Shown in pieces: positions 437 to 13,362 of a stretch of DNA of 48,665 bases. Positions within the stretch are counted from its first letter, which is position 1, and every line of letters starts with the position of its first letter. The stretch covers positions 894,856-943,520 of the forward strand of contig NZ_LT732526.1 of NCBI RefSeq assembly GCF_900155545.1. The letters run 5' to 3'. The notes under the pieces were generated by a model. The model saw nothing but the letters and a program-made list of their open reading frames with translations, was not told where the DNA came from and made no database searches. The DNA is from Clostridium sp. Marseille-P2415 (lineage in GTDB: Bacteria > Bacillota > Clostridia > Lachnospirales > Lachnospiraceae). The position numbers and the translations under genes were made by a program.

Positions 437-487
437 CACCCTTCGGGTATACCTTTATGCAAAAAAACATGGGCGGGAAGGAGGAAA
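437..487 (+). repeat. Intercistronic two-hairpin repeat, copy 1 (decayed)
   Basis: First of a tandem pair between murF and priA. It begins CACCCTTCGGG, continues TATACCTTTATGC and ends GGGAAGGAGGAAA. The first hairpin (ACCC-TTC-GGGT) is intact. The left arm of the second hairpin has lost its CC (GC-AAAAAAACA-TGGGC), so that stem is broken. It keeps a good AAGGAGG but has no start codon after it, because copy 2 follows at once. Confidence 0.85.
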
Positions 488-539
488 CACCCTTCGGGTA
501 TACCTTTATGCCCAAAAAGCGTGGGCGGGAAAGAGGAAA
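488..539 (+). repeat. Intercistronic two-hairpin repeat, copy 2 (supplies the priA ribosome binding site)
   Basis: Second tandem unit, 52 bp. Hairpin 1 is ACCC-TTC-GGGT; hairpin 2 is GCCCA-AAAAGCG-TGGGC with an A-rich 7-nt loop. The tail GGGAAAGAGGAAA contains the Shine-Dalgarno sequence AGAGG, five bases before the priA ATG at 542. The same layout recurs at 4231, 5034, 6386 and 13309. Confidence 0.9.
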
Positions 540-541
540 CT

Positions 542-2770
542 ATGGCAGAACGATTTGCACGGATTATCATTGACATTTCCCATGAAAAAGTTGACAGAAC
601 CTTTGATTACCGGATTCCTTCCGGGCTGCTTGACAAAGTTGCTGTTGGATCTCTGGTTACGATCCCTTTTGGAAAAGGGAATTCCATTAGGAAAGGATAT
701 GTGGTCGGCATTACCGCCCATGCAGATTATGATCCGGATAAAATTAAGAATATAGCAGGGATCGTAACGGATGGCGTGACGGCGGAGTCCCTGCTTATTT
801 CACTGGCATGGTGGCTGAAGGAGCAGTACGGCTCTACCATGAACCAGGCGTTAAAGACAGTGCTTCCGGTAAGGCAGAAGGTGAAACCAAAGGAGAAAAA
901 GGTACTCCGCTGCCTTCTGGGGCAGGAAGCGCTTACAAACGCCCTAGCCGAGGCGGAGAAAAAGAACTATAAAGCCAGGATACGCCTCTTTCAGGCATTT
1001 TTAGAAGCCCCTGCCATTCCATATGAGATCGCGGTAAACCAGATGAACTTATCTGCTTCTACCTTAAAGCCCATGATTGAAAAAAATTATGTAATTCTTG
1101 AATCCGAGGAAGTTTACAGAGACCCAATTAAAGTTGAAACAAAAGAGAGAAACAAGGTGCTTTTAAACCCGGAACAGCAGGCCATTGTAGACAGTTTCTG
1201 CCGGGATTATGGGGAACAGATCAGAAGGACTTATCTGATTCACGGCATCACCGGCAGCGGTAAGACGGAAGTTTATATGGAACTGATCCAAAAAGTCATA
1301 GAAGACGGAAAACAGGTCATTGTTCTCATCCCGGAAATTGCTCTGACCTATCAGACTGTTATGAGATTTTACGGAAGATTCGGAAACCGGGTGTCCATCA
1401 TGAATTCCCGTTTGTCGGCAGGGGAACGTTATGATCAGTTTGAACGGGCCAGAAATGGAGATGTGGATATTATGATCGGTCCGCGCTCGGCTTTATTCAC
1501 TCCCTTTTCCAGACTTGGCCTGATTCTGATAGACGAAGAACACGAGGGAGCTTATAAAAGCGAGGTAGTTCCAAGGTATCATGCCAGAGATGTGGCCGTT
1601 AAAAGGGCGGCTATGCAGGGCGCATCCCTGGTCTTGGGCTCGGCGACTCCGTCACTGGAAGCGTATACCAGAGCCCTTCGGGGAGATTACCAGCTTTTTC
1701 ATCTTAGGTCACGGGCAAAGAAAGACAGCTCTCTTGCTGCTGTTTCTGTGGTGGATCTAAGGCAGGAATTAAAAGAAGGAAATAAGTCCATCTTCAGCCG
1801 GAAGCTAAAAATGCTGATCGAGGACCGTCTTGAAAAACGGGAGCAGATCATGCTGTTCATGAACCGGAGAGGCTATGCGAACTTTGTATCCTGCCGCTCC
1901 TGTGGGGAGGCTATCCGCTGTCCCCACTGCGATGTGACCCTGACCCTTCACAACAACAGCCGCCTGGTGTGCCATTATTGCGGTCATTCCATACCGGTGC
2001 CGGAACGCTGTCCTTCCTGCGGGTCTCCTTACATTGCAAATTTTGGAGCGGGAACCCAGAAGATTGAACAGATGACAAAAAAGATGTTCCCTGCTGCCAG
2101 AATCCTGCGCATGGATCTTGATACCACCTCAAAAAAAGGCGGACACGAAGAGATCCTGTCTGCTTTTTCCGAGGGAGAGGCGGACATCCTCATCGGAACC
2201 CAGATGATTGTGAAGGGGCATGATTTTCCGGATGTGACCCTGGTAGGTGTCCTGGCGGCGGACTTGTCTTTAAACACCCCGGACTACCGTTCGGCAGAAC
2301 GGACGTTCCAGCTTTTAACCCAGGCAGCCGGAAGAGCCGGACGGGATTTTCGGCATGGAGATGTGATCATTCAGACCTATAACCCGGAACATTACAGCAT
2401 TGTAACGGCTGCAAACCAGGATTATGAGGCGTTTTACCAGCAGGAGATGGCATACCGGCGCCTCATGAAATATCCCCCTGCAAGCGGCCTTCTGACGGTT
2501 CAGTTTTCTTCCCGGCAGGAAAGCTGTCTGACGGACACTGCGGCGGCAGTAACCAGGTATATCGGCCCCATGGCGGAACGGGAAATGGTGCAGACCATTG
2601 GCCCGGTGGAAGCCTCGGTTTACAAAATTAATGATATCTATAGAAAAATTTTATACTTGAAACAGGAAAACTATGATATACTAATAAAAATCAGGAATCA
2701 TATCGATGGTTTTTCAGAAAGCCATCCGGAGCTGTTTGAGCAGGTTATGATACAATACGATTTTTCATAA
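542..2770 (+). CDS. priA: PriA, primosomal replication-restart helicase (742 aa)
   Basis: PriA binds abandoned forks and D-loops and reloads the replicative helicase; it is a 3'-to-5' SF2 DNA helicase. Seen: N-terminal DNA-binding part (residues 1-110), Walker A GITGSGKTEVY at about 235-245, Walker B-type DEEH at about 331-334, SATPS further on, and a cysteine cluster of four CxxC pairs between about 451 and 493 that binds two zinc ions. The later helicase motifs are present (GTQMIVKGHDFP, QAAGRAGR). Length is normal for Firmicutes. I start at ATG 542 because AGAGG lies five bases upstream; an in-frame GTG at 521 falls inside the repeat and has no such site. A coaBC-type gene, often upstream of priA, is absent here. 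Confidence 0.96.
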   Translation: MAERFARIIIDISHEKVDRTFDYRIPSGLLDKVAVGSLVTIPFGKGNSIRKGYVVGITAHADYDPDKIKNIAGIVTDGVTAESLLISLAWWLKEQYGSTMNQALKTVLPVRQKVKPKEKKVLRCLLGQEALTNALAEAEKKNYKARIRLFQAFLEAPAIPYEIAVNQMNLSASTLKPMIEKNYVILESEEVYRDPIKVETKERNKVLLNPEQQAIVDSFCRDYGEQIRRTYLIHGITGSGKTEVYMELIQKVIEDGKQVIVLIPEIALTYQTVMRFYGRFGNRVSIMNSRLSAGERYDQFERARNGDVDIMIGPRSALFTPFSRLGLILIDEEHEGAYKSEVVPRYHARDVAVKRAAMQGASLVLGSATPSLEAYTRALRGDYQLFHLRSRAKKDSSLAAVSVVDLRQELKEGNKSIFSRKLKMLIEDRLEKREQIMLFMNRRGYANFVSCRSCGEAIRCPHCDVTLTLHNNSRLVCHYCGHSIPVPERCPSCGSPYIANFGAGTQKIEQMTKKMFPAARILRMDLDTTSKKGGHEEILSAFSEGEADILIGTQMIVKGHDFPDVTLVGVLAADLSLNTPDYRSAERTFQLLTQAAGRAGRDFRHGDVIIQTYNPEHYSIVTAANQDYEAFYQQEMAYRRLMKYPPASGLLTVQFSSRQESCLTDTAAAVTRYIGPMAEREMVQTIGPVEASVYKINDIYRKILYLKQENYDILIKIRNHIDGFSESHPELFEQVMIQYDFS

Positions 2771-2789
2771 ATGAGAGGATAAAAGATAA

Positions 2790-3281
2790 ATGGCAATTAG
2801 AAAGATCAGAACCATCGGAGATGAAATTTTAAGAAAGCACTGCAAACCTGTAAAGGAAATTACCCCCAGGATCACCGAATTGATTGCGGATATGTTTGAA
2901 ACCATGTACGATTCCAACGGAGTTGGGCTTGCGGCTCCTCAGGTGGGGATTTTAAAGCAGATTGTTATAATAGACGTGGAAGATGGCAACCGGTATGTTC
3001 TCATTAATCCGGAAATCGTGGAGACAAGCGGAAGCCAGACCGGTCCCGAGGGCTGCTTAAGTGTGCCCGGAAAATCCGGAACAGTTACAAGACCCAATTA
3101 TGTAAAAGTAAAGGCCTTTGATGCAGAGATGAAGCCATTTGAATTAGAAGGGGAAGAACTGTTAGCGCGGGCCATCTGCCATGAATGTGACCATTTAAAC
3201 GGTGATTTATATGTGGACAAGGTGGAAGGCGAACTGGAGGATGTCACCTTGGAAGAGGAAGAATCGGAGGTAGAAGAGTAA
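2790..3281 (+). CDS. def: Peptide deformylase (163 aa)
   Basis: Removes the formyl group from the N-terminal Met of new proteins; a metal-dependent cytoplasmic enzyme acting at the ribosome exit. All three family motifs are present: GVGLAAPQVG (residues 44-53), EGCLS (87-91, Cys metal ligand) and HECDH (131-135, two His ligands and the catalytic Glu). The C-terminal tail is very acidic (LEEEESEVEE), as in some Clostridia. An AGAGG precedes the ATG. Only two bases separate its stop from fmt, the enzyme that adds the formyl group to the initiator tRNA, so the pair is surely co-transcribed, as in most bacteria. Confidence 0.97.
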   Translation: MAIRKIRTIGDEILRKHCKPVKEITPRITELIADMFETMYDSNGVGLAAPQVGILKQIVIIDVEDGNRYVLINPEIVETSGSQTGPEGCLSVPGKSGTVTRPNYVKVKAFDAEMKPFELEGEELLARAICHECDHLNGDLYVDKVEGELEDVTLEEEESEVEE

Positions 3282-3283
3282 TT

Positions 3284-4228
3284 ATGCGAATTATATTTAT
3301 GGGAACGCCTGATTTTTCCGTTCCCGCTCTTGAGGCTTTGGTGGGAGCCGGGCATGAAGTCATTGCAGTCGTGACTCAGCCGGATAAACCCAAGGGAAGA
3401 GGGAAGGAAGTCCAGATGACTCCGGTAAAGGAAAAGGCATTGGAATACCAAATTCCCGTTTACCAGCCGGTTAAGGCCAGAGATCCGGAGTTTGTTAAAA
3501 TTCTTACGGATATGGAACCGGAAGCAATCGTGGTGGCTGCTTTTGGGCAGCTTCTGCCAAAGAGCATTCTCGATATCCCCCGTTACGGCTGTTTGAATAT
3601 CCACGCTTCCCTGCTTCCGAAATACCGCGGCGCGTCCCCGATCCAGTATGCAGTCATAAACGGGGAAAAAGAGAGCGGAATTACGACTATGATGATGGCG
3701 GAGACCCTGGATACCGGGGATATGCTGGACCAGGAAGCTGTTATTCTAGATGAGAAGGAGACCGGAGGCAGTCTACATGATAAGCTGAGCGAAATCGGAG
3801 GCAGGCTTATTTTAAAAACCTTAAAAAAAATGGAAGAAGGAACCGCAGTCAGGACTCCCCAGGATGATTCAAATACCTGCTATGTAGGGATGATAAAAAA
3901 ATCCATGGGAGATATCGACTGGTCCATGGATGCGGAATCCATTGAGCGCCTGATCCGGGGCTTAAATCCATGGCCCAGCGCTTATACGGGATGGAATGGA
4001 AAGGTGATGAAGCTCTGGGAAGCAAAGGTGGTGGAGAAAGAGTATGAAGGAGTGTATGGCCAGGTGGTGGAAGTTGGCCGGGACTGCATGATTGTAAAGA
4101 CGGGAAAAGGCGGCTTATCCATCCGCGAGTTGCAGCTGCAGGGAAAAAAGCGCATGGATATCGGAGCATTTCTGCGCGGATATCAGGTTTCAGAAGGAAC
4201 TGTTTTGAAACAACTTGAGCAAAAATGA
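3284..4228 (+). CDS. fmt: Methionyl-tRNA formyltransferase (314 aa)
   Basis: Transfers a formyl group from 10-formyl-THF to Met-tRNA(fMet) for translation start. Seen: N-terminal MRIIFMGTPDFSVPAL, the formyltransferase core NIHASLLPKYRGASPI with N105 and H107, and D143 in DTGDML, matching the Asn-His-Asp catalytic set of the family. The C-terminal OB-fold domain (about 210-314, GLNPWPSAYT onward) binds the tRNA. Length is standard. It follows def by two bases. Its TGA is followed three bases later by repeat copy 3, which separates it from the yugP-like gene. Confidence 0.97.
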   Translation: MRIIFMGTPDFSVPALEALVGAGHEVIAVVTQPDKPKGRGKEVQMTPVKEKALEYQIPVYQPVKARDPEFVKILTDMEPEAIVVAAFGQLLPKSILDIPRYGCLNIHASLLPKYRGASPIQYAVINGEKESGITTMMMAETLDTGDMLDQEAVILDEKETGGSLHDKLSEIGGRLILKTLKKMEEGTAVRTPQDDSNTCYVGMIKKSMGDIDWSMDAESIERLIRGLNPWPSAYTGWNGKVMKLWEAKVVEKEYEGVYGQVVEVGRDCMIVKTGKGGLSIRELQLQGKKRMDIGAFLRGYQVSEGTVLKQLEQK

Positions 4229-4230
4229 AA

Positions 4231-4286
4231 TACCCTGCGGGTATACCTTTATGCCCAAGAAACGTGGGCAGTAATAATGAAAGGAG
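4231..4286 (+). repeat. Intercistronic two-hairpin repeat, copy 3
   Basis: Lies between fmt and the yugP-like gene. Hairpin 1 is the best in the family, TACCC-TGC-GGGTA (5 bp). Hairpin 2 is GCCCA-AGAAACG-TGGGC. The core TATACCTTTATGCCC is identical to copy 2. The tail differs (AGTAATAATGAAAGGAG) but still ends in a strong Shine-Dalgarno sequence (AAGGAG, nine bases before the ATG at 4296). Confidence 0.9.
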
Positions 4287-4295
4287 CATCTGATT

Positions 4296-5012
4296 ATGTT
4301 TTATGGCGGTATGATGGGATATTATCTGGATCCTACCTGGATTCTGGTCATTATCGGGGCAGTCTTGTCCATGACGGCATCTGCCAGAGTAAGCAGTACA
4401 TTCAACAAATATTCAAAGGTGAGAAGCATGTCAGGGATGACAGGAGCAGAAGCGGCAAAGCGCCTGTTGAATTCACAGGGGATTTATGATGTACAGGTAA
4501 GGCCCGTAAGCGGGCGGCTCACGGACCACTATGATCCTAAGACCAAGACGGTCAATCTGTCTGATTCTGTTTACGGATCCACATCGGTTGCGGCAATCGG
4601 TGTAGCTGCCCATGAATGCGGCCATGCCATGCAGGATCATACGGGATATGTTCCGTTAAGACTTCGGGGAGCCATTGTTCCTGCAGCCAATATCGGTTCC
4701 CAGGCGGCTCTGCCCCTCATCATTCTGGGCGTTATCATAGGCGGGATCGGTTCTCCCCTGGTCAACATAGGGCTGATCCTGTTTTCCCTGGCTGTTCTTT
4801 TCCAGCTGGTGACTCTGCCTGTGGAATTCAATGCCTCCAGCCGGGCGGTCACATTACTGGGACAGGTGGGGATTTTAGGCGATCAGGAATTAGGGCATAC
4901 CAGAAAAGTATTAGGTGCAGCGGCGCTTACTTATGTGGCCGCTTTGGCAGCAACTGTGCTTCAGCTTTTAAGACTGGTGATTTTATTTGGAGGAAGAAGG
5001 GATAATGACTAA
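4296..5012 (+). CDS. yugP: YugP-like neutral zinc metallopeptidase, membrane-bound (238 aa)
   Basis: Matches the Zn_peptidase_2 / YugP family of integral membrane proteins of uncertain substrate. Seen: an N-terminal hydrophobic segment (YYLDPTWILVIIGAVLSM), the zinc motif HECGH at residues 106-110, the following DHTGYVPLRLRG, then at least two membrane segments (about 140-175 and 205-230). The region before the motif (PVSGRLTDHYDPKTKTVNLS) is characteristic of the family. The gene sits between fmt and rsmB, and its end overlaps the rsmB start by 8 nt, so translation is probably coupled. It is bracketed by repeat copies 3 and 4. No substrate can be inferred from the sequence. Confidence 0.88.
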   Translation: MFYGGMMGYYLDPTWILVIIGAVLSMTASARVSSTFNKYSKVRSMSGMTGAEAAKRLLNSQGIYDVQVRPVSGRLTDHYDPKTKTVNLSDSVYGSTSVAAIGVAAHECGHAMQDHTGYVPLRLRGAIVPAANIGSQAALPLIILGVIIGGIGSPLVNIGLILFSLAVLFQLVTLPVEFNASSRAVTLLGQVGILGDQELGHTRKVLGAAALTYVAALAATVLQLLRLVILFGGRRDND

Positions 5013-6384
5013 AGAGACAGACAGCAGGGAAAGCCATGCAGGCATACCTTTACGCCCAGAAAACGCGGGCAGGAATAGGGAAATTATACTGGACATCCTG
5101 CTGGAAATACTGGAGCGGGGCGGCTACAGCCATATGATCCTGCGTCAGGCCTTAAATAAGTACCAGTATCTGGATAAATCGGAGCGGGCTTTCATTTCCA
5201 GGACCGTAGATGGAACAGTAGAATACTTACTCCAGATCGATTATGTCATTGATTCCTTTTCTAACATCAAGGTCAGTAAGATGAAACCCGTCATCCGTAC
5301 CATTCTGCGCATGTCGGTTTATCAGCTTCTTTATATGGACCGTGTTCCTGATTCGGCGGTGTGCAATGAAGCCGTGAAGCTTGCTGTAAAACGGAAGTTT
5401 GCCGGATTAAAGGGCTTTGTTAACGGAGTGCTGCGAAACATTTCCAGAAACAGGGAGGAATTGTGCTGGCCTGATGATTCCATTCGTTATTCCATGCCTT
5501 CCTGGATTGTATCCATGTGGGAGGAAACCTATGGCAGGGAAACGGCCGGGATTATGATGGAAGCTTTTTTAAAGAACAGCAGAACTACGGTCCGCTGTAA
5601 TTTTGCAAAGGCTTCGAAAGAAGAAATTCTCCGGAGCTTAAAAATGCAGGGAGCAGAAGTGTCGGAATCCGGTATTTCGGAAGGAATTCTTTACCTGGAA
5701 CGGTTTGATCATCTGGAAGGCCTGGAAGCGTTCCGCAAGGGATATATCCAGGTGCAGGATTTAAGTTCCAGTTTTGTGGGTGAAATTGCAGATCCGCAAA
5801 AAGGGGATTTTTGCATTGATGTCTGCGGCGCCCCGGGAGGAAAGAGCCTCCACATTGCGGATAAGCTTCATGGGACCGGTATGGTGGAAGTCCGGGACTT
5901 AAGTTATCAGAAGATCAGCATGGTACAGGAAAATATTGAACGGTGCGGTTTTAAAAATATCCGTGCAAAGGTACAGGATGCTTTGGTTTCGGATCCGGAT
6001 TCCTTTGAAAAAGCGGATATTGTAATCGCTGACCTGCCCTGCTCCGGTCTGGGTATCATAGGACGAAAACCTGATATCAAATACCGCATGACAATGAATG
6101 ATCTGGAAGCTCTGGCTTCGCTCCAGAGGGAGATTCTTTCGGTTGTACAGGCTTATGTGAAGCCGGGTGGAAAACTGGTTTTCAGTACATGTACCATAGA
6201 CAGGAAGGAAAATGAAGATAATGTACGGTGGTTCCTGGAGCATTTTCCGTTTGATTTCATAGATCTGGAAGGAAAACTGGGAGAAAAACTGAATTCAGCC
6301 ACCATGAGGCAGGGATATTTACAGCTTTTGCCAGGGATCCATCCATGTGATGGATTCTTCATTGCGGCATTTCGAAAAAGGTAG
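5005..6384 (+). CDS. rsmB: RsmB, 16S rRNA m5C967 methyltransferase (459 aa) with a repeat-encoded N-terminal insert
   Basis: SAM-dependent methyltransferase that makes m5C in 16S rRNA. Seen: a NusB-like N-terminal RNA-binding domain (residues 27-160), the SAM motif DVCGAPGGKS from 272, motif IV DLPCSGLG with C346, and motif VI STCTI with the nucleophile C396. The ATG at 5005 overlaps the upstream stop and has GGAGG at 4989; a TTG at 4987 in the same frame has no site. Residues 11-26 (HAGIPLRPENAGRNRE) are encoded by repeat copy 4, read in the same frame as the untranslated copy 6 would be. No in-frame ATG, GTG or TTG occurs between the repeat and Met44, so the insert must be translated if the NusB-like domain is complete. 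Confidence 0.94.
   Translation: MTKETDSRESHAGIPLRPENAGRNREIILDILLEILERGGYSHMILRQALNKYQYLDKSERAFISRTVDGTVEYLLQIDYVIDSFSNIKVSKMKPVIRTILRMSVYQLLYMDRVPDSAVCNEAVKLAVKRKFAGLKGFVNGVLRNISRNREELCWPDDSIRYSMPSWIVSMWEETYGRETAGIMMEAFLKNSRTTVRCNFAKASKEEILRSLKMQGAEVSESGISEGILYLERFDHLEGLEAFRKGYIQVQDLSSSFVGEIADPQKGDFCIDVCGAPGGKSLHIADKLHGTGMVEVRDLSYQKISMVQENIERCGFKNIRAKVQDALVSDPDSFEKADIVIADLPCSGLGIIGRKPDIKYRMTMNDLEALASLQREILSVVQAYVKPGGKLVFSTCTIDRKENEDNVRWFLEHFPFDFIDLEGKLGEKLNSATMRQGYLQLLPGIHPCDGFFIAAFRKR
5034..5083 (+). repeat. Intercistronic two-hairpin repeat, copy 4, inside the rsmB coding region
   Basis: The copy begins CCATGCAGGCATACC, then TTTACGCCC, an A-rich loop and GCGGGCAGG, ending AATAGGGAAA. Hairpin 1 is changed on both sides to ATGC-AG-GCAT, so pairing is kept with different bases. 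Hairpin 2 keeps GCCC / GGGC. Unlike the other copies it lies 29 bases inside an open reading frame and adds about 16 residues without breaking it. Confidence 0.8.
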
Positions 6385-6385
6385 C

Positions 6386-6457
6386 GTCCTGCAGGCATAC
6401 CTTTCCGTCCGAAAGCGGGGCGGGCCCTGCCAAAAAACGTGGGCAGAACAGAGGGAA
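6386..6457 (+). repeat. Intercistronic two-hairpin repeat, copy 5 (one and a half units)
   Basis: Lies between the rsmB stop and the rlmN start. The first unit (6386-6423) has hairpin 1 as CCTGCAGG and a diverged hairpin 2, CGTCC-GAAAGC-GGGGCG. The second unit (about 6424-6457) lacks hairpin 1 and has TGCCA-AAAAACG-TGG(G)CA followed by GAACAGAGGGAAAT. The AGAGGG of the tail, seven bases before the ATG, is the rlmN ribosome binding site. The arrangement looks like a tandem duplication that lost part of the second unit. Confidence 0.8.
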
Positions 6458-6462
6458 ATAGA

Positions 6463-7500
6463 ATGGAAAAAACAGATATAAAATCTCTTGATCTGGAGAG
6501 ACTGACATCGTATATGGTGTCCATTGGTGAAAAGCCATTCCGCGCAAAACAGCTCTACGAGTGGATGCACCGGAAGCTGGCGGCTGATTTTGATGAGATG
6601 ACCAATCTTCCCAAATCTCTGAAAGAAAAATTGCTGCAGTCAGCAGCATTTGTTTCCCTTACTGTTGTAGAGGAAAAGATATCGAAAATAGACGGAACGA
6701 GAAAATACTTATTCGGCCTTTCGGATGGGAATATCATTGAGAGCGTTCTGATGAGATATAAGCACGGGAATTCGGTATGCATTTCATCCCAGGTGGGCTG
6801 CCGTATGGGCTGCCGGTTCTGCGCCTCAACCCTTGACGGGCTGGAACGGAATTTGAGGCCGTCAGAGATGCTGGATCAGATTTACCGGATCCAGAAAATA
6901 ACTGGAGAACGGGTTTCCAATGTGGTGGTTATGGGGTCCGGGGAGCCTTTGGACAATTATGATAATCTGGTTTCGTTCATCCGTCTTCTTACCGATGAAA
7001 ACGGACTGAATATCAGCCAGCGTAACGTAACCGTATCCACCTGCGGCATTGTTCCGGAAATTTTAAGACTTGCGGAGGAAAATCTTCAGATCACTCTGGC
7101 CTTATCCCTGCATGCACCAGATGATGAGGTTCGTAAGACCCTGATGCCTGTAGCCAACCGTTACCCATTAAAGGATGTGCTGCATGCCTGTCAGACTTAT
7201 TTTGAAAAAACCGGACGGCGGCTTACATTCGAGTACAGCCTTGTAAGCGGCGTCAATGACAACCTGAATGAAGCGGCGGCACTTGCGGCTCTGTTAAAGA
7301 ACCAGCATGGACATGTCAATCTGATTCCGGTAAACCCAATCAAAGAACGGAATTACGTGCAGTCAGACCGGAAAGCCATAGAAGCTTTTAAAAATCTTCT
7401 TGAAAAAAACGGAATAAATGTTACTATAAGAAGAGAAATGGGCCGGGATATCAACGGAGCATGTGGACAGCTGAGAAAGAGCTTTTTAAGTCAGGAATAA
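6463..7500 (+). CDS. rlmN: RlmN, dual-specificity 23S rRNA / tRNA adenine C2-methyltransferase (345 aa)
   Basis: Radical SAM enzyme that makes m2A2503 in 23S rRNA and m2A37 in some tRNAs. Seen: the 4Fe-4S motif CRMGCRFC with Cys at 113, 117 and 120; the VVMGSGEPLDNYDN SAM-binding segment; SLHAPDDEVRKTLMPV; and the terminal GRDINGACGQLR with C334, the cysteine that becomes methylated during catalysis. Start ATG 6463 is set by AGAGGG; a GTG at 6439 in frame lies in the repeat hairpin. It follows rsmB, another rRNA methyltransferase, as in Bacillus subtilis. Confidence 0.97.
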   Translation: MEKTDIKSLDLERLTSYMVSIGEKPFRAKQLYEWMHRKLAADFDEMTNLPKSLKEKLLQSAAFVSLTVVEEKISKIDGTRKYLFGLSDGNIIESVLMRYKHGNSVCISSQVGCRMGCRFCASTLDGLERNLRPSEMLDQIYRIQKITGERVSNVVVMGSGEPLDNYDNLVSFIRLLTDENGLNISQRNVTVSTCGIVPEILRLAEENLQITLALSLHAPDDEVRKTLMPVANRYPLKDVLHACQTYFEKTGRRLTFEYSLVSGVNDNLNEAAALAALLKNQHGHVNLIPVNPIKERNYVQSDRKAIEAFKNLLEKNGINVTIRREMGRDINGACGQLRKSFLSQE

Positions 7501-7522
7501 AGAGGGAAGTGAGAATGAAACG

Positions 7523-8266
7523 ATGAAGGCTTGCGCTATGACAGATACTGGAAGAGTCCGAACGGCCAATCAGGATTACGTCTATGCCTCAACAGAGTCT
7601 GTGGGCGTACTGCCCAATCTTTTTTTAGTCGCAGACGGGATGGGCGGCCATCAGGCCGGGGATTACGCTTCCAGATATATTGCCGAAAATCTGGTGGCCT
7701 ATTTAAAACAGGCAAAGCCGTCCCAGATTATTCCGCTTCTTCGGGAAGGAATACAGAAGGTTAACGGTATGCTGTATCAGGAATCCTTAGAAAAGGCAGA
7801 ATTAAACGGCATGGGAACAACACTGGTAACGGCAGTTGTTGAGGACTCCACCATGTATGTTGCCAATGTAGGAGACAGCCGGCTGTATCTGGTAAGGAAT
7901 CAGTTAAAACAGATTACAAAAGATCATTCCTTCGTAGAAGAGCTGGTTTCTTTGGGCCAGCTGGAACGGGGGAGCCGGGATTACTGTGAAAAAAAGAATA
8001 TCATTACAAGAGCGGTTGGTACAGAGGATAAGCTGGAGATTGATTTTTTTGAAGTCAGCCTGGAGCCGGGGGATTATGTACTCATGTGTTCCGATGGACT
8101 CAGCAATATGCTTGAGGACGCTGAGATGGAAGAAATTATCTGCTCAGAACTGGAATTGCCGGAAAAGGCAGAAAAATTAATTACAGTAGCCAATGACAAT
8201 GGAGGAAAAGACAATATTGCTGTTGTTTTAATTGATCCGCAGATTGGCAGGGAGGTAAGCTTATGA
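7523..8266 (+). CDS. prpC: PrpC/Stp, PP2C-type Ser/Thr protein phosphatase (247 aa)
   Basis: Metal-dependent phosphatase that reverses phosphorylation by the neighbouring PrkC kinase. Seen: PP2C motifs in order RTANQDYVY, VADGMGGHQAGDYAS, GMGTTL, NVGDSRLYLV, CSDGLSNML and GGKDNIAVVLI, with the metal-binding Asp residues all kept. Length matches Stp1 / PrpC proteins. Its TGA overlaps the prkC ATG (ATGA), so the two are translationally coupled. The pair acts on ribosomal, cell-wall and germination targets in Firmicutes; the targets here are inferred only from the family. Confidence 0.96.
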   Translation: MKACAMTDTGRVRTANQDYVYASTESVGVLPNLFLVADGMGGHQAGDYASRYIAENLVAYLKQAKPSQIIPLLREGIQKVNGMLYQESLEKAELNGMGTTLVTAVVEDSTMYVANVGDSRLYLVRNQLKQITKDHSFVEELVSLGQLERGSRDYCEKKNIITRAVGTEDKLEIDFFEVSLEPGDYVLMCSDGLSNMLEDAEMEEIICSELELPEKAEKLITVANDNGGKDNIAVVLIDPQIGREVSL

Positions 8267-10410
8267 TCTTAAGACCGGGGACATTTTTACAGGACAGGTA
8301 TGAAATACTGGAGCAGATCGGTTCCGGCGGTATGTCAGATGTGTATAAGGCCCTGTGCCATAAATTAAACCGCCCCGTTGCCATAAAGGTATTAAAGGAA
8401 GAATTCAGTTCGGACAGTGGATTTGTCAGTAAGTTCAAAATGGAGGCCCAGTCGGCTGCCTGCCTTTCCCACCCGAACATTGTGAATATCTACGATGTTG
8501 TGGATGAGGGAGATCTCCATTACATTGTTATGGAGCTGATCGAAGGAATTACGTTAAAAAACTATATATCCAAAAAGGGCTGCCTGGAGGTGAAGGAAGC
8601 CATCGGGGCTGCGATTTCCGTTGCTCAGGGAATTGCAGCCGCTCATGAGCAGGGAATCATACACCGGGATATCAAGCCTCAGAACATTATTATTGCGAGA
8701 GACGGAAAGTTGAAGGTGGCGGATTTCGGGATCGCGCGGGCTGCCTCATCCCAGACACTGAACGCCACTGCCGTAGGCTCCGTACACTACATATCGCCAG
8801 AACAGGCAAGAGGCGGTTACAGCGATGTCAGAAGCGATATTTATTCCCTGGGCATCACCATGTATGAGATGGTGGCCGGCCGGGTCCCGTTTCAGGGGGA
8901 CAATACGGTAACAGTTGCCCTGGCTCATTTGGAAGACCCCATAACACCGCCCAGCTTCTATAATGAGAGCATTCCCGTAGGACTTGAAAATATCATTTTA
9001 AAATGCACCGAGAAGAAACCGGAGTACCGTTATGGAAGCATGCATGAGGTCATAACGGATTTGCGAAAGGCGCTTGTTAATCCGGACGGGGATTTTGTTC
9101 AGTACAATTCCCAGGTGGATGACTCCCAGACTGTGGTCATCGGGAAGCCCGAGCTGGAACAGATCCGTTCCGGCCGCAAGGTACAGGCAGATCCATCTGT
9201 GAACCGGAACGGGATCCGAAAACAGGAACAGCGGCCGGAAAGAAACGGCAATGCACCTGCAGGCGGCAGCAGAACCAGAAGGCAGGAGTCAGAAGATGAT
9301 ATCAATCCCAGGATTGAAAAATTGTTGACCGCTGCAGGCGTTGTCGTTGCCATCATTATTGTGATTGTACTTATTATTGTATTTTCCAAGGTGAGCGGTC
9401 TGTTCCGTTCCGGTTCCTCTAAGGAATCAGAATCAGCCTTAGAGACTTCTGCGGAAGAAACCTTAAGCGATAAGAAGGTGAAGATGCCGGATGTGCTGGG
9501 ACTGGCGGCTGATATTGCAGAACAGAAGTTAAAGGACAGCGGCGGTCTGTATATGAAAACAAGCGACTACGTGTATGACGATACGGTCGATGAAGGGGAT
9601 GTGGTATCCCAAAAGCCATCGGAAGGTACGGTGGTTGACAAGTATTCAGCCGTTTATGTCGTGATAAGCAAAGGACCGGAACATGCCACCATTGATTTGA
9701 CCCAGCTCGGTCTGGAAAAAATGGATGCCGCATCCGCAAAGACAGCTCTGGAGGACAAAGGCCTGGTAGTCAATGTGGAGCAGAAGAACAGTGATACGGT
9801 GACGGCCGGATACGTGATCAGTTTCAGTCCGAGTGAAGCGAAAGAAGGTGAGACGGTGACACTGGTCTCAAGCAGCGGGCCTGTCCTGGTGAATCCGGTT
9901 ACCGTACCGGACATTTCCGGTCAGACCCAGGAGGTTGCCATTGAAATGCTGGCTGACGTAGGACTTGTCCAGGGTACGGTCACAGAAGCAACTTCTGAGA
10001 CCGTAGCCATGGGCAGCGTCATCAGCCAGTCTGTAACAGCAGGCAGCCAGGTAGAATCAGGGACAGCTGTTAATTATGTGATCAGCAGCGGAACTGCCCA
10101 GCAGGCCAAATACAAATATCTGGCTTCCATTGACAAATCCTATTCCCTGCAGAACATCATCGGACCTGGTTCAGGCAGCACCCAGCTTACCTTAAAGATA
10201 CAGTTAAGGCAATGGGTGAATGGAAAGGATGAGGTCAGGGAGCTCATGGGTCCTGTCACTATGACAGGTGACCAGCTGCTGCCGGTATCGTTTAAAAATA
10301 TAGAAGGCGCTTACGGTGTTACAAACGGTACAGTTGAAATCGTAAATGTAGAGACAGGCGATGTGATTAATTCCTATTCCATCACATTTATCCCGGTCCC
10401 CCAATCTTAA
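8263..10410 (+). CDS. prkC: PrkC, membrane Ser/Thr kinase with PASTA repeats (715 aa)
   Basis: Senses muropeptides or lipid II through extracellular PASTA domains and phosphorylates cytoplasmic proteins; in Bacillus it signals spore germination. Seen: glycine loop GSGGMSDVYKA (20-30), catalytic K42 (VAIKVL), HRDIKPQN from 134 (D136), DFG from D154, and SPEQARGG plus RSDIYSLG later. A charged linker (about 280-345) leads to one membrane segment (about 354-378, Ile/Val rich). Three PASTA repeats follow (about 406-473, 476-545, 547-615), then a C-terminal beta-rich domain (616-715) without a motif I recognise. PASTA 2 starts with IDLTQ rather than the usual VPDL-type start. The gene overlaps prpC by 4 nt. 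Confidence 0.96.
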   Translation: MILRPGTFLQDRYEILEQIGSGGMSDVYKALCHKLNRPVAIKVLKEEFSSDSGFVSKFKMEAQSAACLSHPNIVNIYDVVDEGDLHYIVMELIEGITLKNYISKKGCLEVKEAIGAAISVAQGIAAAHEQGIIHRDIKPQNIIIARDGKLKVADFGIARAASSQTLNATAVGSVHYISPEQARGGYSDVRSDIYSLGITMYEMVAGRVPFQGDNTVTVALAHLEDPITPPSFYNESIPVGLENIILKCTEKKPEYRYGSMHEVITDLRKALVNPDGDFVQYNSQVDDSQTVVIGKPELEQIRSGRKVQADPSVNRNGIRKQEQRPERNGNAPAGGSRTRRQESEDDINPRIEKLLTAAGVVVAIIIVIVLIIVFSKVSGLFRSGSSKESESALETSAEETLSDKKVKMPDVLGLAADIAEQKLKDSGGLYMKTSDYVYDDTVDEGDVVSQKPSEGTVVDKYSAVYVVISKGPEHATIDLTQLGLEKMDAASAKTALEDKGLVVNVEQKNSDTVTAGYVISFSPSEAKEGETVTLVSSSGPVLVNPVTVPDISGQTQEVAIEMLADVGLVQGTVTEATSETVAMGSVISQSVTAGSQVESGTAVNYVISSGTAQQAKYKYLASIDKSYSLQNIIGPGSGSTQLTLKIQLRQWVNGKDEVRELMGPVTMTGDQLLPVSFKNIEGAYGVTNGTVEIVNVETGDVINSYSITFIPVPQS

Positions 10411-10420
10411 GGAATGGTAT

Positions 10421-11299
10421 ATGACAGGTAAAATTTTGAAAGGAATCGCAGGATTTTATTATGTGCACGGCACGGACGAAAATTTATATGAATGCAAGGC
10501 GAAAGGCATTTTCCGCAATAAAAATGTAAAGCCTCTGGTTGGAGATGATGTGGAAATTTCTGTTCTGGATAAACTGGAAATGAAAGGAAACATTGATCAG
10601 ATCCTGCCCAGAAAAAATGCCTTGATCCGTCCGGCCGTGGCCAATGTGGATCAGGCTCTGGTGCTTTTTTCCATTACTCATCCGGAGCCGAATTTAAATC
10701 TGCTGGACCGTTTTCTGGTCATGATGGAAGTCCAGGAGGTTCCTGTAAGTATCTGTTTTAACAAGATTGATTTAACAGGCGATGAAAAAAGACAAGCTCT
10801 CCGGGATATCTACGGGGCGGCGGGATATCCCGTATATTTTACCAGTACCTATGATAACCGGGGGATCGATGGGATCCGGACGCTGGTCCTTGGAAAAACT
10901 ACGGTTCTGGCAGGACCATCCGGAGTTGGAAAGTCATCTCTCACCAATCTTCTTTACCCCCAGGCTGAGATGGAGACTGCAAATATCAGTGAGAAAATCC
11001 AAAGAGGAAAGCATACCACCAGGCATTCCGAGCTTTTTGGCATCGGACGGGACACGTACATGATGGATACGCCGGGATTCAGTTCCATGTACATGGAGGA
11101 TATGGAGTGTATCCGTCTGAAGGACTATTTTCCGGAATTTGAACCTTATGAAGAAAACTGCAGATTTTTGGGCTGTGTTCATATTGGGGAAACCGTCTGC
11201 GGCGTAAAGAATGCAGTGGAAGAAGGAAAAATCAGTCATAGCCGATATGAGAACTACCGGCTTTTATACCAGGAACTAAAAGAAAAAAGGAGATACTAA
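10421..11299 (+). CDS. rsgA: RsgA, circularly permuted ribosome small-subunit GTPase (292 aa)
   Basis: Late 30S assembly factor; a GTPase with motifs in permuted order G4-G1-G3. Seen: an N-terminal OB fold (1-75), G4 NKIDLTG from N114, G1 GPSGVGKSS at 165-173, switch region RGKHTTRHSE, G3 DTPGFSS from D216, and a C-terminal zinc site with C247, C252, H254 and C260. Length is standard. It lies ten bases after prkC and one base before rpe; the prpC-prkC-rsgA-rpe-thiN order matches Bacillus, where RsgA (CpgA) is itself a PrkC/PrpC substrate. Confidence 0.97.
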   Translation: MTGKILKGIAGFYYVHGTDENLYECKAKGIFRNKNVKPLVGDDVEISVLDKLEMKGNIDQILPRKNALIRPAVANVDQALVLFSITHPEPNLNLLDRFLVMMEVQEVPVSICFNKIDLTGDEKRQALRDIYGAAGYPVYFTSTYDNRGIDGIRTLVLGKTTVLAGPSGVGKSSLTNLLYPQAEMETANISEKIQRGKHTTRHSELFGIGRDTYMMDTPGFSSMYMEDMECIRLKDYFPEFEPYEENCRFLGCVHIGETVCGVKNAVEEGKISHSRYENYRLLYQELKEKRRY

Positions 11300-11300
11300 T

Positions 11301-11963
11301 ATGCTAAAACTTGCCCCTTCTATATTAGCGGCGGACTTTAAAAATCTGGGACAGCAGGTGTCGGATGCAGCGGCGGCAGGCGCTCATTATATCCATCTGG
11401 ATGTGATGGATGGGGCTTTTGTTCCCAGCATTTCATTTGGAATGCCTGTGATCGGCAGCCTGCGCAGCTGCACTGACCGGGTATTCGATGTTCATATGAT
11501 GGTAGAGGAACCAGGGAGATATGTGAATGACTTAAAGGAAGCGGGAGCAGATCTCATCTGCGTACATGCCGAGGCGTGTACCCATTTGGACCGCACCGTT
11601 AACCAGATTAAGGAAGCGGGGTTAAAGACCGGGGTGGCACTTAATCCGGCAACTCCCCTGTCTGTTCTTGACTGCATTCTGGGAGAAGTGGATATGGTCT
11701 TAATCATGACCGTAAACCCAGGCTTTGGCGGACAGAAATTCATCCCATACACCCTGGATAAGGTGAGGGCGTTAAGAAGCATGTGCAGGGAACGGGGCCT
11801 TCAAACTGACATTCAGGTTGACGGAGGAGTGACCTGCGATAACGTGAGAGAGCTGATTGAAGCAGGCGCTAACGTATTTGTGGCCGGTTCAGCCGTATTC
11901 AAAGGGGATGCGGCAGCCAATACAAAGGCATTTTTAAAAATATTTGAGGAATATGAAGGGTGA
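11301..11963 (+). CDS. rpe: Ribulose-phosphate 3-epimerase (220 aa)
   Basis: Interconverts ribulose-5-P and xylulose-5-P in the pentose phosphate pathway, a TIM-barrel enzyme with one divalent metal. Seen: MLKLAPSILAADF, HLDVMDGAFVPSISFG (metal-binding His/Asp), FDVHMMVEEP, LIMTVNPGFGGQKFI and IQVDGGVT, all in the normal order, plus GSAVF near the end for phosphate binding. AAGGAG ahead of the ATG lies in the end of rsgA. Its TGA overlaps the GTG of thiN. Confidence 0.97.
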   Translation: MLKLAPSILAADFKNLGQQVSDAAAAGAHYIHLDVMDGAFVPSISFGMPVIGSLRSCTDRVFDVHMMVEEPGRYVNDLKEAGADLICVHAEACTHLDRTVNQIKEAGLKTGVALNPATPLSVLDCILGEVDMVLIMTVNPGFGGQKFIPYTLDKVRALRSMCRERGLQTDIQVDGGVTCDNVRELIEAGANVFVAGSAVFKGDAAANTKAFLKIFEEYEG

Positions 11964-12622
11964 AGAAAGAAATTACAGGTTTGATTGTTACCGGAGGCAC
12001 CATGAACTATGGATTTGCCGGCAGATTTTTGGAGAACAGGACATTTGATAAAGTGATTGCTGTGGATGGCGGGCTTGCCTCTCTCCATAAGCTTCATTTA
12101 AAGCCGGATGCGATTGTGGGAGACTTTGATACGGTGGATCCGGAAGTCTTAGCGGAATATAAAAGCTGCCCGGATGAGATTACATGGGAGATCCACAGAC
12201 CGGAAAAGGATGAAACCGATACCGAGCTGGCCCTGGATACCGCCATAAAGCTTGGCTGTACAAAATTGATTCTGCTGGGCGCCACAGGGGGGAGGATGGA
12301 CCATTTCATTGGCAATATCCATCTTCTTTATGCCTGCCTGAAAAAAGGTGTGGAGGCTGCCATTGCAGACGAAAAAAACTGGATCACGGTACTGGATCGG
12401 GGACGGACGTTTGCTGCAGAGGAGGTAAAGGGAAAATACATCTCCTTTCTTCCCTTGAGCGGGGAAGTAAAGGGGATCACTTTGACCGGTTTTAAATACC
12501 CTCTCCATAAAAAGGATATTGATATAGGAACCAGCCTCTGTATCAGCAATGAACTGACGGGCGAAAAAGGCACAATCGACTTTGATTCCGGAACGCTTAT
12601 CTGTGTGGAATCCCACGATTAA
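11960..12622 (+). CDS. thiN: Thiamine pyrophosphokinase (220 aa)
   Basis: Converts thiamine plus ATP to thiamine diphosphate. Seen: AVDGGLASLHKL, the key GDFDTVDPE acidic motif, KDETDTELALD, LGATGGRMDHFIGN, and a C-terminal beta domain that binds thiamine (SFLPLSGEVKGITLTGFKYPL is split across this region). The start is GTG 11960, which overlaps the rpe stop by four bases (GTGA); the end of rpe carries GAAGGG as a modest ribosome binding site. No thiamine riboswitch is visible in front of it, as expected for an operon-internal salvage gene. Confidence 0.95.
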   Translation: MKKEITGLIVTGGTMNYGFAGRFLENRTFDKVIAVDGGLASLHKLHLKPDAIVGDFDTVDPEVLAEYKSCPDEITWEIHRPEKDETDTELALDTAIKLGCTKLILLGATGGRMDHFIGNIHLLYACLKKGVEAAIADEKNWITVLDRGRTFAAEEVKGKYISFLPLSGEVKGITLTGFKYPLHKKDIDIGTSLCISNELTGEKGTIDFDSGTLICVESHD

Positions 12623-12718
12623 ACTGGTATGGTTTAATATATCGAAACTGGATATTTATATCACTCCACTTGCGTGCTAAGATTAGGAACAATCATAGCA
12701 TTAAGGGAGGAATTACCA

Positions 12719-13306
12719 ATGAGTAAAATGAATCAACGAATCTATAGGCTTTCACTGACCGGGCTGTTTGCAGCCATGTCCTATGTGGTATTCACGTTTC
12801 TGCAGTTTAAGATCACGCTTCCGGGCGGAGATGCCACGTCCATTCATCTCGGGAATGCCGTCTGTGTTTTGGGAGCTCTTCTGCTGGGAGGACTTTATGG
12901 TGGATTAGGCGGAGCGATCGGCATGACCATCGGGGATCTCTTTGACCCGGTTTATGTGGTTTATGCACCAAAAACTTTTCTGTTAAAATTGTGCATCGGC
13001 CTTATAACCGGATTGCTGGCCCATAGGATCGGCAGGATCAATGAATCAACCGACCAGAAGCACATACTTACCTGGACTATAATAGCGGCAGTCGGCGGCT
13101 TGCTGTTCAATGTAATTTTTGATCCTCTGGTAGGTTATTATTATAAGCTGCTCATTTTGGGAAAACCGGCGGCTGAGCTGGCACTCGCATGGAATATTGC
13201 ATCCACTTCCATCAATGCCGTGACTTCAGCCATTGTTTCCGTGATCATTTATTTACCGCTTCGAAATGCTTTGGTCAGGTCGGGATTATTCGCAAAAATT
13301 TGTTAG
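12719..13306 (+). CDS. ECF transporter substrate-binding (S) component, probably for a B6 vitamer (195 aa)
   Basis: Small membrane protein with about five or six hydrophobic segments and the S-component pattern ATSIHLGNAVCVLGALLLGG followed by GAIGMTIGDLFDP. Such proteins dock with the shared EcfT/EcfA1/EcfA2 module, which is not encoded here. The gene after it is a pyridoxal kinase, which suggests pyridoxine/pyridoxal uptake; this is inference from context, and the upstream thiN leaves thiamine as an alternative. The start is ATG 12719 with AAGGGAGG eight bases upstream; an in-frame upstream start at 12674 has no such site. The stretch 12623-12700 holds small inverted repeats (ATATC-gaaactg-GATAT; GATAT-tt-ATATC) but no clear promoter. 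Confidence 0.82.
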   Translation: MSKMNQRIYRLSLTGLFAAMSYVVFTFLQFKITLPGGDATSIHLGNAVCVLGALLLGGLYGGLGGAIGMTIGDLFDPVYVVYAPKTFLLKLCIGLITGLLAHRIGRINESTDQKHILTWTIIAAVGGLLFNVIFDPLVGYYYKLLILGKPAAELALAWNIASTSINAVTSAIVSVIIYLPLRNALVRSGLFAKIC

Positions 13307-13308
13307 GA

Positions 13309-13362
13309 AGTACCCTTCGGGGATACCTTTATGCCCAAAAAGCATGGGCGGAAAAGAGGAAA
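13309..13362 (+). repeat. Intercistronic two-hairpin repeat, copy 6
   Basis: Between the ECF component and the pyridoxal kinase. Hairpin 1 reads TACCC-TTC-GGGGA, hairpin 2 is GCCCA-AAAAGCA-TGGGC, and the tail GGAAAAGAGGAAA gives AGAGG ahead of ATG 13368. It lies almost 7 kb from the nearest other copy and shares the core ATACCTTTATGCCCAAAAAG with copy 2. Read in frame it would encode SGIPLCPKSMGGKEE, matching the insert in RsmB (AGIPLRPENAGRNRE) in frame and in pattern. Confidence 0.88.

Follow-up and report, generated by a model that had tools for sequence, protein, structure and literature searches.

A short two-hairpin repeat of Lachnospiraceae that appears to insert at Shine-Dalgarno-like sequences

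Repeat units in the window

A stretch of 48,665 nucleotides from Clostridium sp. Marseille-P2415 (the window; C9:894856-943520 of the 5.25 Mb genome G000, contig NZ_LT732526.1) carries a short dispersed repeat among the genes murF, priA, fmt, a Zn-peptidase gene (PF04298), rsmB, rlmN, an ECF transporter gene and a kinase gene (PF08543/PF00294). The unit is about 52 bases long, often in tandem, and consists of two hairpins followed by a GGAAA-type tail that resembles a Shine-Dalgarno (SD) sequence. A sequence-only reading of the window had counted seven units. With a covariance model (R1) built from 34 units of the genome, one per array and free of insertions and deletions, we found six (four of them among the model-building sequences), since the supposed units at 6386 and about 6424 form a single long form with an extra hairpin. 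The next-best R1 match in the window has an E-value of 0.24. The units and their flanking sequences are:

437..487, + strand: unit 1 of the two-unit murF/priA array, with hairpin 2 weakened by a deletion (R1 E 5.4e-12)
488..539, + strand: unit 2 of this array, ending in GAGGAAA two bases 5' of the priA ATG at 542 (R1 E 4.7e-18)
4225..4230, + strand: left copy of a flanking ATGAAA (sequence, compared with unit-free relatives)
4231..4282, + strand: single unit between the fmt stop and the Zn-peptidase gene start (R1 E 2.5e-16)
4277..4282, + strand: right copy of ATGAAA (sequence); the GGAG just behind it is probably the SD of the Zn-peptidase gene
5026..5032, + strand: left copy of the duplicated target AGGGAAA (comparison with relatives)
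5033..5083, + strand: 51-base in-frame insert within the rsmB coding sequence (model match 5032-5083, R1 E 7.5e-14)
5077..5083, + strand: right copy of the duplicated target AGGGAAA (comparison with relatives)
6385..6459, + strand: unit of the long form, with its extra hairpin, at the rsmB-rlmN junction (match 6385-6457, R1 E 6.2e-4)
13311..13362, + strand: single unit between the ECF transporter gene and the kinase gene (R1 E 1.3e-16)

Five of the six units are thus of the 51/52-base form, and the one at 6385-6457 is of the long form. The earlier reading had placed the units between stop and start codons, 3, 3, 2 and 3 bases after the stops of murF, fmt, rsmB and the ECF gene; the model boundaries give the close values of 3, 2, 0 and 4, and the placement holds for most units, that at 5032-5083 lying in frame inside rsmB. 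The NusB match of this protein starts at about 5074, at the 3' end of the insert. A sense open reading frame (ORF) of 742 amino acids begins two bases past the unit at 488..539.

Copy number and distribution

The search of the genome and its relatives that the sequence-only reading had proposed gave 109 R1 matches at E<=0.01 in the home genome and matches at the same threshold in all 25 sampled genomes of the genus. Two of the 109 come from a scaffolding duplicate, leaving about 107 copies. The 18-base core, allowing up to three mismatches, occurs at 101 places in the genome, and the reversed pattern at 7; together with the 109 model matches and the fact that in a phylum sample of 398 genomes the home genome alone matched, this excludes chance, and the repeat itself is confirmed. 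Just upstream of the window, a 1145-base identical stretch flanks a single N (L046:6316-7460 and again 2541 bases downstream, the N at about L046:8856, G000:C9 ~894855). These are probably contig ends joined without merging, an artefact of scaffolding that doubled the end of murF and the start of priA.

Within the genus the number of copies runs from 4 to at least 150. The eight genomes whose rsmB is at least 82% identical to that of the home genome (itself included) have 109 to at least 150 copies, and the other 17 have 4 to 42. These eight high-copy genomes are G000, G005, G006, G008, G009, G018, G019 and G020. Matches at E<=0.001 were found in 51 of 397 genomes of the family (44 of 334 genera), a lower bound from a scan with stricter filters that scored only 14 candidates per genome. 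At the level of the order, 12 of 392 genomes matched, all of the same family, and in the phylum sample (stricter filters, few of the 398 genomes from this family) the single match was the home genome. An exact pattern retrieved 54 stretches from named genome records, where very near relatives of the home genome may be missing, with titles such as Lachnospiraceae, Clostridia, Diplocloster, Sporofaciens musculi, Lachnoclostridium, Eubacterium, Roseburia and similar. So far the repeat is known from a single bacterial family, which the record titles point to as Lachnospiraceae. We found no earlier description of it in the literature searched, which mostly excludes subscription papers.

Neither a plasmid nor a phage was retained as a vector: there was no plasmid match, records very near the home genome possibly being missing, and the exact pattern occurred in none of the IMG/VR contigs, the one phage match covering 30 bases at E 0.09 (close records may again be missing). 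A named RNA family was likewise dropped as the identity of the repeat: Rfam 15 gave no match at the gathering threshold in the window, and in E-value scans of positions 400-600 and of 4 of 28 family loci nothing that lay over a unit reached the gathering score.

Structure of the unit

The consensus reads CACCC-TNC-GGGT, ATACCNNNA, TGCCCA-7 bases-TGGGCA and about 12 purine-rich bases with a terminal GAGGAAA; the loop of hairpin 1 has three bases and that of hairpin 2 is A-rich. In the 34 own units, 95.0% of the pairing cells are standard (91.3% after shuffling), and 14 cells carry double changes where shuffles give 2.7. Counted by pairs instead, those showing a double change (3, with 2.2 in shuffles) and the pair types (5, with 7.2) did not exceed the shuffles. 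The 41 units taken from other genera were aligned to R1 and are hence biased towards the model; they pair in 93.0% of cells (78.5% shuffled, at most 52% in slid controls) and carry 49 double-change cells against 12.2, with helix 2 alternating among C-G, U-A, G-C and A-U, while 6 pairs have a double change against 4.6 in shuffles. Taken alone, the count of pairs with double changes was not above shuffles in either test (186/500 and 53/500). Some unpaired positions are conserved as well, among them the linker CC and part of the A-rich loop, and the CC and the final GAAA are present in nearly all rows. Since the folding energy is not unusual (z -0.88 for the two-unit leader and +0.47 for the long form), the structure rests on covariation.

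No terminal inverted repeats were found, the ends of the consensus giving a local score of 5 against a shuffle mean of 4.1, a score reached by 28% of shuffles. A stop codon is present in some sense frame of 22 of the 34 units. Among the own arrays there is one unit type besides the long form, in which about 24 extra bases form a third hairpin (76 bases for the one in the window). The long form stands alone in L011, L038, L040, L047 and at 6385-6457 of the window, and in the mixed arrays (L019, L029, L035, L042, L043) it lies at or near the 5' end, as if it were an older copy.

Placement before genes and tandem arrays

To describe the position of the arrays, we recorded ORFs of at least 60 amino acids starting between -10 and 60 bases from the unit end, start codons being those predicted from the longest ORF. 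Such an ORF follows 43 of the 47 own arrays in sense and 15 in antisense. The same asymmetry was seen in family arrays of other genera (29 of 31 in sense, 6 of 31 in antisense) and in a second other-genus set found by the exact pattern (58 and 9 of 62). In 37 of the 47 own arrays, the unit ends 1-19 bases 5' of the likely start codon. The downstream genes examined share no function (PriA, Zn-peptidase, RlmN and kinase, with ispF, mnmA, recF, a parC-like and an mglA-like gene recognised by eye only).

Spacing within own arrays is nearly constant, at 52 bases in 42 cases, 51 in 7, 24 in 6 (the long form), 50 in 1 and 53 in 1; in the other-genus set it is mostly 51 (34 cases) and 50 (11). Units are more alike within own arrays than between them (identity 0.873 against 0.738), and their number varies at the same gene between two species, with 4 and 2 units before ispF and 4 and 1 before another gene.

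Filled and empty orthologous sites

The junctions of the operon were compared between the window and 20 loci of the genus (21 loci). In the window rsmB reads AGGGAAA-insert-AGGGAAA, in frame, and the insert is absent from all 20 relatives, which have a single target at this place (AGGGAAA in 6, AGGGAGA in 13 and AGAGAAA in 1, L112). At the rsmB start, L112 (genome G008) differs by 12 bases, in frame, close to where the home insert lies; by eye this difference resembles the 3' arm of hairpin 2 and is perhaps a decayed independent insertion. The rsmB-rlmN junction is filled in 8 loci and empty in 13; murF-priA holds a recognisable unit in 7 and a decayed one in 1, with 12 empty and 1 unreadable; and ECF-kinase is intact in 2 and decayed in 1, with 16 empty and 2 unreadable. 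At fmt-Zn-peptidase, the unit is intact at home, diverged in L108 and reduced to 3' remnants in L109-L113. No unit was seen there in L107 and L114-L126, which have one GAAAGGAG at the place of 4225..4230. In L109-L113 the remnant forms the C-terminus of the fmt reading frame, with the same TGA stop (before TTATG) as in the unit-free L114-L119.

Two further gene starts were compared across genomes. The first precedes a conserved, cysteine-containing small protein (MRKYKNGGQ..., L305-L328); of 22 readable genomes, 20 carry a unit there and 2 have an empty site, two more loci being cut or not found. There, AAAAAGGAAA is single where the site is empty and stands, as such or as a close variant, on both sides of the unit where it is filled: empty sites read gcgAAAAAGGAAAGGTGAG and filled ones AAAAAGGAA[A]-unit-AAAAGGAAAGGTGAG, or nearly so. 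As two unit types occur among the filled sites, units may have been inserted more than once, or lost and regained. The second, the start of a parC-like gene, is filled in 6 of 24 genomes (one only partly), ambiguous in 1 and empty in 17. G009 is the one high-copy genome of the eight with a filled site, a pattern that suggests separate insertions at a single SD.

Empty sites retain one SD-like sequence, and these orthologous comparisons show a repeat that appears to have moved. The suggestion of the sequence-only reading that a mobile or copied element supplies translation starts is well supported by the roughly 107 copies, their sense placement, the empty orthologous sites and the duplicated SD-like target; by its position, the SD of the unit would be the one used for translation. 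A lack of further copies, random placement and a lack of conserved pairing, any of which would have spoken against a repeat family, were looked for, and none of them was found.

Duplication of the target

We then compared the 5' flank of each array with the tail of the same array, using shuffled flank/tail pairings as the control and leaving aside 23 of 47 own arrays and 27 of 62 in genome G018 (partial match, unit-like flank or unusual tail). Flank and tail match at -8 to -5 beyond shuffles in both genomes (0.003 for the 24 own arrays used, 0.008 for the 35 of G018). The excess begins at -7 (0.71 against 0.42 in own arrays, 0.54 against 0.33 in G018), and the last four bases of the tail are a near-constant GAAA in both genomes. 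Two earlier versions of this test, one on 41 arrays that included unit-like flanks and one on 28 hand-chosen rows with stronger values, are not relied on.

These matches show a unit made of a two-hairpin core of about 45 bases and about 7 bases that appear to repeat the target. In the flank of first units, G[AG]A[AG] occurs in 22 of 27 own cases and 23 of 42 in G018, against a background of 9%. Judged from such flanks, the target is shown to be a purine-rich GGAAA-type sequence, which before genes occupies the position of the SD. Once a unit is in place, an SD-like sequence still lies 5' of the start codon, be it the GAGGAAA of the unit or the GGAG of the host just behind it.

The duplication bears on a spread without a dedicated enzyme, in which template switching or gene conversion at GGAAA-type microhomologies would copy one period of an array into the SD of another gene. 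Near-constant periods, homogeneous arrays and the GGAAA common to array ends and targets all suit such a process, as do the lack of terminal inverted repeats and the failure of two tested enzyme families to follow copy number (see below). Nevertheless, the tail matches the host flank up to -7, beyond what a shared GGAAA requires, and the contrast between eight genomes with 109 to at least 150 copies and 17 with 4-42 is more in keeping with an active mobiliser, so that we regard this explanation as very unlikely.

Apparent constraint on resident copies

For 14 of 18 orthologous pairs of arrays between the home genome and G018, the difference is 0.11 in helix columns and 0.17 in other columns, against 0.43 at fourfold sites (2724 sites, 18 gene pairs); the comparison lacks units decayed beyond recognition and so leans towards apparent constraint. 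Five of the six double changes in these pairs are compensatory, and of the single changes 10 keep and 9 break the pair. The slow change of resident copies fits either selection or continued homogenisation. The SD is more exposed than with shuffled unit cores in 22 of 37 loci, which is not significant (p 0.11), and G-U and A-C cells number 24 and 26, giving no signature of selection on the sense RNA. The second suggestion of the sequence-only reading, a conserved RNA structure that regulates translation, is thus borne out for the structure, by covarying pairs and the slow change of resident copies, and gains no support for the regulatory role, given ordinary folding energies, an SD exposure that is not significantly raised and G-U cells no commoner than A-C. 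A function of resident copies for the host is possible, as far as the comparisons of sequences go.

The same observations could be read as a vertically inherited cis-regulatory leader RNA, binding a protein or ligand, in which the tandem units set translation and apparent mobility is differential loss. Its hairpins covary, some unpaired positions (the linker CC, part of the A-rich loop) are conserved, copies at fixed sites change slowly with mostly compensatory double changes, and the small-protein gene carries a unit in nearly all readable genomes. On the other hand, the downstream genes examined are functionally unrelated, the rsmB copy lies within a coding sequence in one genome only, empty sites keep one SD-like sequence, and no Rfam family matched; nor do the energies, the SD exposure or the G-U count point to a leader RNA. 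We find it quite unlikely.

A further explanation, which we consider unlikely, is that of a portable module for translation initiation. A retroposon-like or hairpin-DNA element would home to SDs through the match of its SD-like tail, would carry a self-contained leader and would have been domesticated at many genes throughout the family, its structure being kept by selection and the number of units tuning translation.

Proposed mechanism of spread

We favour, with a probability of about 0.72, the explanation that these units form a family of mobile elements, very short, non-coding, non-autonomous and without terminal inverted repeats, which insert at SD-like sequences in such a way that the SD is kept and then duplicate in tandem. 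An enzyme acting in trans would recognise the hairpins together with an SD-like target and insert the first copy; insertion into a GGAAA-type site would leave about 7 bases repeated, and tandem arrays would then grow mainly through local duplication. As GGAAA-type sites before genes are SDs, units come to lie in sense 5' of start codons and the gene retains an SD. The sense orientation would follow because the target is strand-specific, and insertions would survive because ribosome binding is kept. More tentatively, long-resident copies may have become part of the gene leader and be kept by selection.

Several observations weigh against this explanation. No mobilising enzyme was found, and of the two families tested, Y1 transposase and reverse transcriptase, neither follows copy number: G005 (149 units) and G008 (at least 150 units) lack any Y1 transposase match at E<=1e-5, and G009 (131 units) lacks any reverse transcriptase match. 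Both were rejected as drivers on this ground. Terminal inverted repeats are lacking, and the slow change of resident copies exceeds the constraint expected of an inert relic. The duplication test covered about half of the arrays, a weaker excess at -14 to -11 (0.089 own, 0.030 in G018) lies outside a 7-base duplication, and in other genera the flank/tail match at -8 to -5 was at 0.60 of shuffles (37 of 62 arrays, where the tail is fixed by the search pattern and many flanks are decayed units). Furthermore, the small-protein site is empty in G008, whose high-copy relatives are filled, which could be a precise loss rather than a site never filled. Finally, many sites are old and the movement need not be of the present day, since for 18 own arrays the fetched G018 loci include an array at the orthologous gene, with differing unit numbers.

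In the own genome, ten Y1-transposase matches share one identical score and nine reverse-transcriptase matches share another; these are probably multi-copy mobile elements of other kinds.

A REP-like element moved by a Y1/HUH transposase of the IS200/IS605 or RAYT type, as single-stranded hairpin DNA beside a fixed target, would account for the hairpins, the strand-specific target and the tandem arrays, and 20 of the 25 genus genomes have Y1 matches. However, the two high-copy genomes without a match at E<=1e-5, G005 and G008, are single contigs, and about 7 bases seem duplicated here, whereas transposition of the Y1/HUH class is not known to leave a target duplication. This makes such an origin extremely improbable. 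The lack of inverted repeats, the A-rich 3' tail and the target duplication would also suit a small retroposon, if one reasons from these features.

If the repeat is a mobile element of the kind we favour, it points to a mobilising activity whose choice of target is SD-like, and it shows how the leaders of many genes of one genome can be rewritten. Genes with 4 and 2 units (ispF), 4 and 1, or none offer a natural series for the effects of leader hairpins on translation. For annotation, in-frame copies are a warning, as they lengthen predicted proteins, as at rsmB.

Comparison with known repeats

The closest known system in behaviour is that of the mycobacterial interspersed repetitive units (MIRUs), which are dispersed tandem units inside operons, in sense with the neighbouring genes, a feature that the repeat shares. 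MIRUs are mobile-looking short repeats that land on a signal for translation initiation and probably affect the gene little (PMC12548453). Being short and apparently mobile at such a signal is common to both. MIRUs differ in inserting at the start codon, with coupling through an ORF inside the unit, while the repeat targets an SD-like sequence, stops short of the start codon in most cases and leaves an SD behind; overlap coupling at the start codon was not found in it, internal ORFs being judged by stop counts only. The repeat further differs by its two covarying hairpins and belongs to another phylum.

BOX and RUP resemble the repeat in being short, apparently parasitic and non-autonomous, and BOX is the closest in tandem build. 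BOX of Streptococcus pneumoniae is a parasitic-looking non-autonomous repeat with a variable tandem middle module, a predicted RNA structure and a target duplication; it is bounded by boxA and boxC, has terminal inverted repeats and is found in excess between convergent genes (PMC3049150). The modular boxA-boxB(n)-boxC layout with inverted ends is absent from the repeat, which mostly precedes start codons.

REP and BIME elements, which go with RAYT transposases, are likewise short hairpin repeats in many copies; the repeat differs by a copy number that does not track Y1 genes, by sense placement at SDs and by target duplication. Rickettsia palindromic elements can lie in frame within coding sequence, like the rsmB copy, but here one clear in-frame copy was found and the usual target is an SD. 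Compared with miniature inverted-repeat transposable elements (MITEs), the repeat lacks terminal inverted repeats and shares target-site duplication (rsmB, the small-protein sites and the flank/tail test in two genomes).

The SD target, the lack of inverted ends and the covarying two-hairpin core set the repeat apart from these small interspersed mobile repeats. Such repeats usually occupy places where they do little harm, whereas this one lands on a signal that the gene needs and is seemingly tolerated as the signal stays.

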